Part shown: piece after piece, positions 18,649 to 22,437 of the stretch
Numbering within the stretch: position 1 is the stretch's first letter
Layout: each line of letters begins with the position of its first letter
Assembly: GCA_003003615.1 (NCBI GenBank)
Contig: PVWD01000028.1
Location: forward strand, 1-37,146
Reading direction: 5' to 3'
Origin: a filamentous cyanobacterium CCP2
GTDB lineage: Bacteria > Cyanobacteriota > Cyanobacteriia > Elainellales > Elainellaceae
DNA: 37,146 nt
Made by a program: the position numbers and the translations under genes
Notes under the pieces: model-generated
Told to the model about the DNA's origin: nothing
The model's database searches: none
The model's input: the letters and a program-made list of their open reading frames with translations, nothing else

Positions 18649-19365
18649 CTATGAACCAACCGGATTAAAGGGTTGAAGATTTAATTCAGCTTGCCATTGG
18701 GCAACGGGCTTTTCCCAGGCTTGTTCCCACTTTTGGGCAAACAGAGGCTTTGCCTGTAAACCCATCCGCCATCCCTGCTCGATCGCCTTGAGCAGTTGGG
18801 GCATCTCTTTGGGCGAGAGCAAGGTGACACTGATCAACGCATTAGCAATCAATAATCCGGCAAGCGGCAGCCGAAACTGCGCTAAATAAAACGCTTGCAG
18901 CCCAATTTCTTCAATGCCATCGGTGCCAAACCCAGTAACGATATGCCAAATATCATGGGTTTGCTGCCAGCGATATTCGATGTAGGTGGTATCTGAACTG
19001 ACAGGAAGTTCTGGATCAATCCGATCGAACCCCTTTTGCTGAAGGCTAGACGCATACTGGTGTCCCAGCGAATCCGGCGGACATTGCAAAAGACGATCGA
19101 GATCATGAGCAGGGGGCAGATACCGTTCCTGGATCAGGGCAGCCACCTCTGGATCAGCTTTCATCTCCTGGGCAGCAAGCTGAAAGGCAGGGCTATGAAC
19201 CAGGGTAAGACTGAGTTCATCGACGGCATCCAAATCGTCTGTGGTGAGTAGCGTGAAAAAAGCTTTCAAGGCAGTCAAAAACTGAAAATTTAGAATGGGC
19301 TGCATTTCGGTGTGTTGTCCGATCGCCTCAAAAGCATTCCAATCGATCGTTTTGATCGTTTGCAT
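18649..19365 (-). CDS. Coq4-family protein
   Basis: 238 residues from ATG 19365, chosen over an in-frame ATG 28 codons upstream because GGAG sits about eight bases before it. The Coq4 zinc signature HDxxHx11E is intact: H137, D138, H141 and E153 in HDIWHIVTGFGTDGIEE. Coq4 acts in ubiquinone synthesis in eukaryotes and proteobacteria (established). Cyanobacteria make plastoquinone instead, so this homologue must have another substrate or role (inference). It is transcribed divergently from a TetR regulator with tandem operators between, so it is probably that regulator's target. Its leader, before the start, contains a 28-codon ORF. Confidence 0.88.
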   Translation of the reverse strand: MQTIKTIDWNAFEAIGQHTEMQPILNFQFLTALKAFFTLLTTDDLDAVDELSLTLVHSPAFQLAAQEMKADPEVAALIQERYLPPAHDLDRLLQCPPDSLGHQYASSLQQKGFDRIDPELPVSSDTTYIEYRWQQTHDIWHIVTGFGTDGIEEIGLQAFYLAQFRLPLAGLLIANALISVTLLSPKEMPQLLKAIEQGWRMGLQAKPLFAQKWEQAWEKPVAQWQAELNLQPFNPVGS

Positions 19366-19467
19366 GGCAAGACTCCAAGAAGGGCAACAAATGGGTGAAT
19401 GAGGATGGTTGAAGTTGCTGAGTTCAATAAACGGATGGGGGTAGGGCAATGATCTGGACGATTCTGG

Positions 19468-19554
19468 CTATTGCGGTAACGATCGAGTGATTGAATGGCG
19501 GTAAATATGAATTGTGGCAAACTCGATCGTCCTGACTTTTCCATCCGTTGCCAT
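19468..19554 (-). CDS. Short leader ORF upstream of the Coq4-like gene, doubtful
   Basis: 28 codons beginning MATDGKVRTIEFATI, on the same strand and about 100 bases upstream of the Coq4-like start, between it and the operators. The first 15 codons resemble those of the ORF at 15768-15908 (MATDRKVGTVEFVAF). It may be a leader peptide gene, or a small copy of a dispersed sequence with no coding role. Confidence 0.25.
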   Translation of the reverse strand: MATDGKVRTIEFATIHIYRHSITRSLPQ

Positions 19555-19572
19555 GAGTTCAACATCCAATAA

Positions 19573-19593
19573 AATATGAACAGTGTTCATATT
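19573..19593. promoter_or_regulatory. Palindromic operator O1 of the TetR/Coq4 locus
   Basis: Perfect 10-bp inverted repeat AATATGAACA and TGTTCATATT around a single G. It lies between the divergent Coq4-like and TetR genes, the usual place for a TetR-family operator. A second, slightly imperfect copy starts 26 bases further right. Confidence 0.8.
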
Positions 19594-19598
19594 AATAA

Positions 19599-19619
19599 AA
19601 TACGAACGGTGTTCATATT
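19599..19619. promoter_or_regulatory. Palindromic operator O2 of the TetR/Coq4 locus
   Basis: Imperfect copy of O1: AATACGAACG, G, TGTTCATATT, with two mismatches in the left arm. It ends 21 bases before the likely TetR ATG at 19641. Centre-to-centre distance from O1 is 26 bp, about two and a half helical turns. Binding here would block the tetR promoter or leader. Confidence 0.75.
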
Positions 19620-19640
19620 TTGTCAAGGGTAAGATGGGTC

Positions 19641-20288
19641 ATGTCTGTAAAAAAATCTCGAAGCCCTTCGATGCGTCGCCAACCGCAGCAAACCCGCAGT
19701 CAAGAGCGGGTGAATCATATCCTGACAGCGGCTGAGGAGCTATTTATGGAAGTGGGGTATGAACAAACCACCACACGGGCGATCGCAGCACGGGCGAAGG
19801 TGGCTGTAGGGACGCTGTATCAGTTTTTTCCTGATAAAGAAGCGATTCTCAAGGCATTGGCCACCCGCTACTTTCAAGCGGAATATCAACTTTTTGCTGC
19901 ATTGCATACCCCGGAGGCAGAATCCTTGTCGCTGGGTGATTATGTCGATCGGGTGATTGATGCCTTTGATCACTTTATGAACAGCCAGCCAGGCTATCGG
20001 GCGGTGTATGAGCAATTACTCAACCTGATGACCTATTCGGCAGTTGAGGCAATGGATGATTATGAATATCGGATTGTGGATGAACTGGCTGCTTTTTTTG
20101 CGCGGCTGAATCCTGATTTGAATGCCGAAAAATCTCAGACGATCGCTTTAATTGTCGTCAAAGTGGTGGGGGATTTGCTGTGGCTCTCAGCTAGTCAAAC
20201 GCCTGCACAGCAGCGATCGCTCATTGCAGAAACGAAAGTCTTGATGCTGAGTTATCTCGATCGGTATTTGGGCGATCGGATGGGTTGA
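19641..20288 (+). CDS. TetR/AcrR family transcriptional regulator
   Basis: 215 residues from ATG 19641; a TTG seven codons upstream overlaps O2 and is less likely. The N-terminal helix-turn-helix (about 20-65) reads ILTAAEELFMEVGYEQTTTR, AIAARAKVAVGTLYQFFPDK, a clear TetR signature. The C-terminal ligand and dimer domain follows, with no recognised ligand motif. It is divergent from the Coq4-like gene, and two 21-bp palindromes lie in the gap, so self-repression and control of the neighbour are the simplest model (inference). Ligand unknown. Confidence 0.93.
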   Translation: MSVKKSRSPSMRRQPQQTRSQERVNHILTAAEELFMEVGYEQTTTRAIAARAKVAVGTLYQFFPDKEAILKALATRYFQAEYQLFAALHTPEAESLSLGDYVDRVIDAFDHFMNSQPGYRAVYEQLLNLMTYSAVEAMDDYEYRIVDELAAFFARLNPDLNAEKSQTIALIVVKVVGDLLWLSASQTPAQQRSLIAETKVLMLSYLDRYLGDRMG

Positions 20289-20551: not shown

Positions 20552-21991
20552 ATGAACCCAGAGCGATTGGCAAGGATTCGAGATCTCTGTCGAGATGAGG
20601 TTGCCTTTGAGCAACTCCAACAGTTGCTCAGTGAGGAAAAGCAACCCCTGGAGCAAGAGATCTGTCATGCTCTTTTCCAGGTTGAACAGCAGAAAACCCT
20701 GTTTAGCGTGATTACGCGCCTGCGAGAATTCCTCGATTTGGAAACGATTTTTCGAGCGACTGCGGCGGAGGTGCGCCAACTGTTGGCAGCCGATCGGGTG
20801 GGAATGTTCCGCTTCTATCCCAATTCGGGGTGGAATGATGGTGAGTTTGTCTCTGAGGCGGTTGATCCAGAATTTCCTTCGGCGATCGCCCATAAAATTC
20901 ATGACCATTGCTTTGGCGATCAGTTTGCCATTCACTATCAGGAAGGGCGGGTGCAGAACGTTGCCGATATTCACAATGCTGGGCTGAGCGATTGCCACAT
21001 TGAGATTCTTTCCCGATTTCAGGTACAAGCAAACTTGGTAGTCCCCCTGTTGCAAGGTCGCCATTTGTGGGGATTACTCTGCATTCATCAGTGCCGTACT
21101 CCTCGTCAGTGGCAGGAAACTGAAATCGAGTTTGTGCAGCAAATTGCTGGTCATTTGGGGGTTGCTTTGCAACATGCAGAACTGATGGCAGAACTGCGGG
21201 CAGAAGTGGCAGAACGGCAGCAAGCCGAACAGCGGGCGCAAGAACTGAATCAGGGTTTACGACAGGCGATCGTTGAACTGAAGGCGGTGAATAGAGAACT
21301 GGAAGCCTTTAGCTATTCCGTTTCCCATGATTTACGGGCACCCCTACGCAGTATTGACGGTTTCAGTCAGGCCTTGCTGGAAGACTGCCTGGATCAGCTA
21401 GATACCACCGGACAGGACTATTTACGCCGCATCCGCTCTGCCTCCCAGCGCATGGGACAGTTGATTGATGACCTCCTTACCCTATCGAGAGTCACCCGCA
21501 GCGATATGCGGAGAGAAGCAGTTGATCTGAGCCAACTCGCCAGCCGCATCTGCACTCAGTTACAGCACGCTCAGCCCGATCGCCAGGTGGAATTTGTGAT
21601 CCAAACGGGATTAGTTACTCAAGGAGATGTCCGATTGCTGCAAGTAGTGTTGGAAAACTTATTGAATAATGCCTGGAAATTTACCTCCCGGCAGATGCAA
21701 GGGAAGATTGAGTTTGGAGCAATTCAAGCTAATGCCGCTGCACCGGAGAACGGCATCCCAATTTATTTCGTCCGGGACGATGGGGTTGGTTTTGATATGG
21801 CGTATGTTGATAAATTGTTTAAACCGTTTCAGCGGTTACATCGGATGCACGAGTTTCCTGGTAATGGGATTGGGCTGGCGACTGTGCAGCGCGTTGTTCA
21901 CCGGCATGGGGGGCGGGTCTGGGCAGAAGGAACCTCAGAGCAGGGAGCAACGTTTTATTTCACGCTAGCAGAGGAGAGTGTTGGGGCATGA
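20552..21991 (+). CDS. Cyanobacteriochrome-type GAF sensor histidine kinase (DXCF class)
   Basis: 479 residues, no membrane segment. A GAF domain spans about 55-210. It carries D118-H119-C120-F121 (a DXCF motif) and a canonical bilin-attachment C148-H149 in LSDCHIEILSRFQVQANLVV. The two Cys are 28 residues apart, the spacing I recall for the two-Cys photoreceptor TePixJ. A short coiled coil (about 208-252) leads to a HisKA domain with phospho-acceptor H259 in SVSHDLRAPL and an HATPase domain with N-box ENLLNNAWKF (368-377), DDGVGFD (409-415) and GNGIGLATV (437-445). It probably senses blue/green light through covalent bilin (inference). GAGGAGGA precedes the start. The response regulator gene overlaps its end by four bases. 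Confidence 0.9.
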   Translation: MNPERLARIRDLCRDEVAFEQLQQLLSEEKQPLEQEICHALFQVEQQKTLFSVITRLREFLDLETIFRATAAEVRQLLAADRVGMFRFYPNSGWNDGEFVSEAVDPEFPSAIAHKIHDHCFGDQFAIHYQEGRVQNVADIHNAGLSDCHIEILSRFQVQANLVVPLLQGRHLWGLLCIHQCRTPRQWQETEIEFVQQIAGHLGVALQHAELMAELRAEVAERQQAEQRAQELNQGLRQAIVELKAVNRELEAFSYSVSHDLRAPLRSIDGFSQALLEDCLDQLDTTGQDYLRRIRSASQRMGQLIDDLLTLSRVTRSDMRREAVDLSQLASRICTQLQHAQPDRQVEFVIQTGLVTQGDVRLLQVVLENLLNNAWKFTSRQMQGKIEFGAIQANAAAPENGIPIYFVRDDGVGFDMAYVDKLFKPFQRLHRMHEFPGNGIGLATVQRVVHRHGGRVWAEGTSEQGATFYFTLAEESVGA

Positions 21992-22437
21992 GTGGGGAGA
22001 GCAATCAGAGAGTGATTCTATTGGTGGAAGACAATCCTGATGATGAAGCATTAGCCATTCGTGCTCTGAAACGGCATCACATCGGCAATCAGATTGTGGT
22101 AGCCCATGATGGGGTCGAGGCGATCGATTATCTGTTTGGCACAGGGATGTATGCAGGGAGAGATGTGAGCCTTAAACCCACTGTCGTCTTGCTGGATCTC
22201 AAACTGCCCCGGATTGATGGTTTTGAAGTTTTACGCCGCATCCGGGAAAATGAAGCCACCAGATTATTGCCTGTAGTGGTTTTGACCACATCCAACGAAG
22301 AACAGGACTTGCTCAATAGCTACAGCTTAGGGTGCAATAGTTACATTCGCAAACCTGTTGATTTTCTTCAATTTTCCGAGGCAATTCGGCAATTGGGGAT
22401 GTATTGGCTGTTGATGAATGAACCCCCACCCCTGTAG
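21988..22437 (+). CDS. Rcp1-like single-domain response regulator
   Basis: 149 residues, one receiver domain. Acidic pocket residues lie in LLVEDNPDDE, phospho-acceptor D70 in VVLLDLKLPR, the conserved Thr in VLTTSN and Lys in YIRKPVDF. Its length and the EDNPDDE and DYLFGTG features match the Rcp1 group that pairs with cyanobacterial phytochromes. ATGA overlap with the upstream kinase indicates translational coupling, so that kinase is its likely phospho-donor. No output domain: it may bind another protein or pass phosphate to the hybrid kinase encoded next. Confidence 0.94.
   Translation: MSGESNQRVILLVEDNPDDEALAIRALKRHHIGNQIVVAHDGVEAIDYLFGTGMYAGRDVSLKPTVVLLDLKLPRIDGFEVLRRIRENEATRLLPVVVLTTSNEEQDLLNSYSLGCNSYIRKPVDFLQFSEAIRQLGMYWLLMNEPPPL

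Follow-up and report, generated by a model that had tools for sequence, protein, structure and literature searches.

Closest Described Systems

The tetR-tetA and qacR-qacA systems each consist of a TetR repressor gene, a divergently transcribed target gene and palindromic operators lying over both promoters, an arrangement that is expected to make the repressor autoregulatory and to respond to a small molecule as inducer. The same plan is found in a 37,146-nucleotide stretch of contig PVWD01000028.1 of the filamentous cyanobacterium CCP2 (the whole stretch that was analysed, hereafter the window), where a tetR gene stands divergent to a gene for a Coq4-family protein. The targets of the two described repressors are pumps, whereas the target in the window is a Coq4-family enzyme, and its operators are two separate 21-bp palindromes set at a fixed step of 26 bp. 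DesT, FasR, KstR and FadR, TetR proteins that sense acyl-coenzyme A (acyl-CoA) or lipids, rank near the top of the structural matches to the window TetR model, with 16–25% identity in the aligned parts and with different target genes.

On the side of the enzyme, the Coq4 homologues 6e12 (Alr8543) of Nostoc and 3msq, which we take to be from Nostoc as well, show nearly full-length similarity to the window Coq4 (92 and 138 bits, respectively) and have the metal motif in common with it. In the literature covered, no established function was found for 3msq or 6e12, and no assigned role for bacterial members of the Coq4 family. Unlike eukaryotic COQ4, the window-type gene is accessory and linked to a TetR, in hosts that keep UbiD and make plastoquinone. 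With eukaryotic COQ4 it has in common HDxxHx11E and the profile of the Coq4 family; according to PMC7615680, COQ4 is a Zn-dependent C1 decarboxylase in vitro, for which this motif is required, and the reaction was assigned in vitro only recently. COQ9, the lipid-binding partner of COQ4, likewise pairs a TetR fold with Coq4, a likeness at the level of the fold, and its absence from the 50 fold matches listed for our TetR model is no evidence against that likeness; unlike in COQ9, the helix-turn-helix (HTH) of the window-type TetR co-varies with operators. No title on a cyanobacterial tetR-coq4 pair was found in a literature search that left subscription papers outside, so that absence from print does not follow, while the papers mentioning Coq4 and TetR together as whole words deal with human COQ genes and with Mycobacterium abscessus.

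The tetR-coq4 Pair and Its Tandem Operators

We showed a conserved regulatory anatomy at this locus, as read from the DNA, consisting of the gene pair, its putative operators, their conservation and their overlap with the predicted promoters. The pair very probably forms a self-contained regulatory switch, an estimate that covers the regulatory part. The features are the following:

18649..19365, minus strand: coq4-like gene, 238 aa, starting at ATG 19365; PF05019 and intact HDxxHx11E metal site
19641..20288, plus strand: tetR gene, 215 aa, likely ATG start; TetR_N and TetR_C_15; divergent from coq4
19573..19593, no strand: putative operator O1, AATATGAACAGTGTTCATATT, perfect 21-bp palindrome (10/10 arm pairs), overlapping the final bases of the predicted tetR -10
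19599..19619, no strand: putative operator O2, AATACGAACGGTGTTCATATT, 8/10 arm pairs, in the predicted coq4 -35/-10 spacer and overlapping the -10
19597..19626, minus strand: predicted coq4 promoter, TTGACA-18-TATTTT, from the promoter scan (10/12 consensus matches); TTGACA box also in relatives
19548..19575, plus strand: predicted tetR promoter, TTGCCA-16-TAAAAT, from the promoter scan (10/12); consensus match only

The product of coq4 is well over the Pfam cut-off for Coq4 (PF05019; 92.3 vs 22.9 bits), and its translation carries HDIWHIVTGFGTDGIEE, which reads as HDxxHx11E, so the intact site that a preliminary description of this DNA had reported in a Coq4-family gene is borne out. The N-terminal HTH of the TetR is over the cut-off for TetR_N (PF00440; 63.8 vs 24 bits), its C-terminal part matches TetR_C_15 (PF17918; 69.7 bits), and the model of the protein has an all-helical TetR fold (predicted local distance difference test, pLDDT, 84.7; predicted template modelling score, pTM, 0.75). 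Longer mechanical open reading frames (ORFs) begin at TTG 19449 for coq4 and at TTG 19620 for tetR; the preferred starts are ATG 19365 and ATG 19641. Divergent transcription of coq4 and tetR places the operators in a promoter region common to both genes.

O1 and O2 form a 26-nt direct repeat that is 92% identical, the 26 bp being measured from start to start, and their coordinates agree with the earlier description of two 21-bp palindromes, 26 bp apart, between tetR and coq4, of which O2 is imperfect. When the intergenic stretch 19366-19640 was subjected to 5000 dinucleotide shuffles, a perfect 21-bp palindrome arose in 3 of them, and the observed tandem score of 27.5 was reached in none (best shuffle 21.5). 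The promoter scan of 19300-19700 called 2 divergent sites against 0.5 expected, and one operator per promoter would be the simplest reading of the tandem. Perfect inverted repeats can also form hairpins, and one could therefore imagine that the palindromes are sites for another protein, or a DNA or RNA structure, and not TetR operators at all; we hold this to be extremely improbable, as the palindromes accompany the same TetR at loci without coq4 and change with its HTH (see below), and as no terminator was called at them in the same scan of the O1/O2 region.

The search for Coq4 relatives covered a set of named genomes, which gave 22 loci, as well as 36 genomes from the order and 145 from the class; the latter 145 also supplied the TetR relatives. 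After the removal of duplicate loci there were 35 distinct divergent tetR-coq4 pairs, and 33 of them keep two clear operators; the preliminary description had regarded operators missing from relatives with the gene pair as the finding that would speak against it, and the opposite was observed. The operator step, taken from the best-scoring tandem, is 26 bp in 29 pairs, 27 in 3, 24 in 2 and 25 in 1, and TTGACA stands immediately before O2 in 27 of the 35 pairs, with near variants in the other 8. ORF clustering of 22 relatives together with the window showed no neighbour kept beyond the pair itself; clusters of 3 to 5 loci came mostly from close relatives, and the surroundings of the pair mostly differ, except in one group of four close relatives. 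Operon or pathway neighbours were considered and rejected, since only the pair recurs in this clustering.

Reach and Specificity of the Operators

The genome-wide motif search that had been suggested earlier was run on the 6.95-Mb genome of CCP2, and no palindrome other than O1 and O2 came within 2 mismatches of the motif. With as many as 3 mismatches allowed, 17 single palindromes were found vs 9 for the reversed control. These results led us to reject a regulon built on near-perfect sites but leave room for weaker ones. The tandem pattern in its exact form occurs once, and only this exact match is meaningful, because a tandem search that tolerates 2 mismatches gives 1 site vs 3 in the reversed control. 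Across the class (388 genomes), the exact tandem pattern was found in 16 genomes at 17 places, vs 1 for the reversed control. Among the 16 places examined (one further place is outside this count), 12 precede coq4 or a coq4 remnant (L130); L143 has a TetR with an amine-oxidase-like gene, L144 a TetR with a regulator that, judged by eye from its sequence, resembles the Crp family, and L141 and L142 have neither TetR nor coq4 within the stretch examined. Such a sharply defined tandem operator, without a second copy in the genome, could provide a native promoter for regulated expression in cyanobacteria.

The operators of relatives fall into two classes, TetRs with Arg46 having GAAC half-sites and those with Asn46 having GAGC. 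This was counted on 47 TetR fragments whose tandem exceeds the cut-off: the variable half-site base is A:G = 111:7 for Arg46 (n = 30), 1:55 for Asn46 (n = 14) and 2:6 for Gln46 (n = 2), the remaining fragment being the second part of a TetR with a frameshift. In another eight TetR fragments no tandem exceeded the cut-off; L123 and L084, the latter at the start of a contig, are among them. The co-variation of HTH and operator illustrates specificity and is no statistical proof of it. With the operators kept in relatives, their change together with the HTH, their overlap with the predicted promoters and the lack of a near-perfect second copy, the earlier proposal that TetR controls coq4 through this pair of sites has all the support that sequence can give.

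The window-type TetR and its tandem operators also stand before a flavin amine oxidase at L075 and L085 (PF01593, 247 and 260 bits) and before a cytochrome P450 at L098 and L105 (PF00067, 290 bits each); the amine oxidases of L075 and L085 were assigned by Pfam, that of L143 by resemblance. The repressor and its operators have thus been combined with different enzymes, the operators preceding an amine oxidase or a P450 where coq4 is absent, and the families of these enzymes suggest that they act on lipophilic or amine substrates. It is possible, if short of probable, that we are dealing with defence against xenobiotics or allelochemicals, in which TetR would sense a toxic hydrophobic compound and Coq4 would modify it, the link to quinone synthesis being merely ancestral. 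The P450 loci and the three amine oxidase loci, with the same TetR and operators, point in this direction, as does the patchy occurrence of the tetR-coq4 module, which shifts between neighbourhoods, but both the metal motif and the match to the Coq4 profile are fully retained, and no efflux gene was conserved beside the window pair in the neighbour clustering.

A small ORF of 103–137 codons was seen near the TetR or the operators of the GAGC class (L095, L096, L101, L047, L141 and L145), ending in LLSELLW, LLNDLLW or LLNELLW; four copies scanned (L096, L101, L047 and L145) had no Pfam match. As a second gene, the small operator-spanning ORF was rejected, its start being doubtful and its first codons being the operator read as protein.

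A Coq4 Subfamily and a Second TetR

The Coq4 tree and the counts on it include 66 distinct rows, from which the partial or broken L033, L035, L090 and L130 and near-copies were left out; HDxxHx11E is intact in all 66. Outside two clades of plain paralogues lie 48 rows, and in this subfamily the window-type TetR is adjacent in 34 and a second TetR in 8, three rows (L047, L117 and L133) have tandem operators with no adjacent TetR, and L115 has the second operator only; L037, at a contig edge, and L032, with a cut 5' end, were not judged. A control element of either type accompanies 46 of the 46 judged subfamily rows vs 0 of the 18 rows in the other Coq4 clades, and the count becomes 45 of 45 without L131, the one among the 34 linked rows that was found through its operators only. 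The best tandem scores are 33–42 in the 34 linked rows vs 25–30 in the 18 plain ones. The boundary of the subfamily was set after inspection of the tree, which weakens the rule somewhat, and a single clade for the linkage to TetR was rejected, since 8 changes of this label have to be placed on the Coq4 tree (shuffle mean 22.4), so that it is clustered only. CCP2 itself has two further Coq4 paralogues, G000:C495 (L001) and G000:C245 (L002), 41–43% identical and without TetR or operators.

The second TetR type (L044, L045, L046, L048, L051, L054, L065 and L114) is encoded on the same strand as the subfamily coq4, which lies downstream of it. It is at most 33% identical to the window TetR over 53 to 91 residues, mainly in the HTH, and TetR_N was its sole Pfam domain over the cut-off in all three proteins scanned of the eight. 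Its promoters have the common core CGAGCGNTCG, or a one-base variant of it, just downstream of the -10. Relatives of this TetR with approximately 50% identity precede DevB-family exporter adaptors (L150, TIGR02971 at 316 vs 129 bits; L153, with HlyD domains), and CGAGCGTTCG, with the same operator core, occurs in four loci of such relatives before exporter adaptors, which adds to the case for defence against a toxic compound. The Coq4 gene appears to be coupled to two different, unrelated TetRs, the second coupling having been absent from the preliminary description, and that two unrelated TetRs are linked to one Coq4 subfamily suggests that expression on demand is a lasting need.

Proposed Mechanism, Ligand and Reaction

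In the switch that we propose for the tetR-coq4 pair, one TetR dimer would bind O1 and a second dimer O2. The dimer at O2 would block the coq4 promoter, because O2 lies directly behind the predicted coq4 -35 box, and tetR would be self-limiting through the dimer at O1, since this operator shares bases with the predicted tetR -10. The inducer would be a small lipophilic compound, most likely the Coq4 substrate itself or one related to it, that frees TetR and turns coq4 on. The Coq4-like protein would then use the metal site HDxxHx11E on this inducer; judging from animal COQ4, it could decarboxylate a lipid of the hydroxybenzoate type in a metal-dependent manner. We infer binding, repression, autoregulation and induction by a lipophilic ligand from the layout of the locus, while the class of the ligand and the reaction of Coq4 are guessed. 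A repressor tied to a Coq4 subfamily offers a direct way in, as a compound that releases TetR from O1/O2 would be a strong lead to the Coq4 substrate.

Several points weigh against this proposal. Two of the pairs are poor, L090 with a truncated coq4 and a single clear operator, and L123 with weak operators and the most distant TetR (39% identity). The switch of Arg/Asn with A/G is a single event on the tree, giving 1 independent pair, and the statistical claim that HTH and operator changed together independently was dropped for this reason. Other enzymes, too, are fronted by members of this TetR family, so that what the TetR senses may differ from the Coq4 substrate, and since TetR folds are all alike, structural matches single out no ligand. 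Finally, a close Coq4 is present in 29 of the 36 genomes of the order and lacking in 7, so that its product is not essential.

The best structural match of the TetR model was DesT with palmitoyl-CoA (3lsj_A; Z 19.1, root-mean-square deviation 2.9, 194 aligned), with DesT, FasR and EthR tied at Z 18–19, and the NCBIfam models of FasR and KstR scored far below their cut-offs on the window TetR (FasR 38.3 vs 330 bits). A long hydrophobic ligand suits these matches, which are not proof of it; that it is lipid- or quinone-like, as the earlier description also guessed, is compatible with the acyl-CoA- and lipid-binding TetR matches and with the other genes that the family fronts. The ligand might instead be a fatty acid or acyl-CoA and Coq4 might handle an acyl lipid, in the service of lipid homeostasis, and here one can point to DesT, FasR and FadR, top matches that bind long acyl-CoA, and to the oleic acid held in the structure of the Nostoc Coq4 homologue 6E12, as given in PMC9774615. 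We find this rather doubtful, given that oleic acid in the crystal may be carry-over from expression and that there is no linked acyl-handling gene.

Cyanobacterial plastoquinone is made from 4-hydroxybenzoate, a precursor that would fit a back-up role in which a stalled polyprenyl-hydroxybenzoate acts on TetR as the signal to make a Zn-dependent decarboxylase in place of UbiD. Such a role could also draw on the C1 decarboxylation by COQ4 with Zn in vitro (PMC7615680) and on the TetR-like fold of COQ9, the mitochondrial COQ4 partner (PMC9774615). It nevertheless seems unlikely to us, because UbiD, the usual bacterial enzyme for C1 decarboxylation, is present in 33 of the 36 genomes of the order, that of CCP2 included, because the plain Coq4 paralogues without TetR are equally good candidates, and because no quinone gene was found beside the pair by Pfam in the window or by neighbour clustering. 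With UbiD in nearly all genomes, Coq4 is not the sole decarboxylase candidate for that step, in keeping with the caution voiced earlier that plastoquinone synthesis is not known to need Coq4. Very unlikely, in our estimate, is the reading that a distinct inducible cyanobacterial Coq4 subfamily, which came under TetR control on at least two occasions through repressors that are unrelated and differ in their operators, is a lipid-triggered, metal-dependent aryl decarboxylase that replaces UbiD on prenylated hydroxybenzoates, with a DNA-binding TetR as the lipid sensor in place of the COQ9 that stands beside mitochondrial COQ4.

Neighbouring Genes and Decaying Copies

Adjoining tetR in the window, 20552-22437 encodes, by Pfam, a GAF-histidine kinase together with a response regulator, neither of which is kept with the pair in relatives. 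A gene with GST domains, presumably a glutathionyl-hydroquinone reductase, lies downstream of the pair in four related Nostocaceae only and was given little weight. Decaying copies were also seen: L024 has a frameshifted TetR with intact operators, coq4 is truncated in L090 and internally deleted in L130, and the coq4 with a cut 5' end in L032 lies beside transposase-like ORFs.
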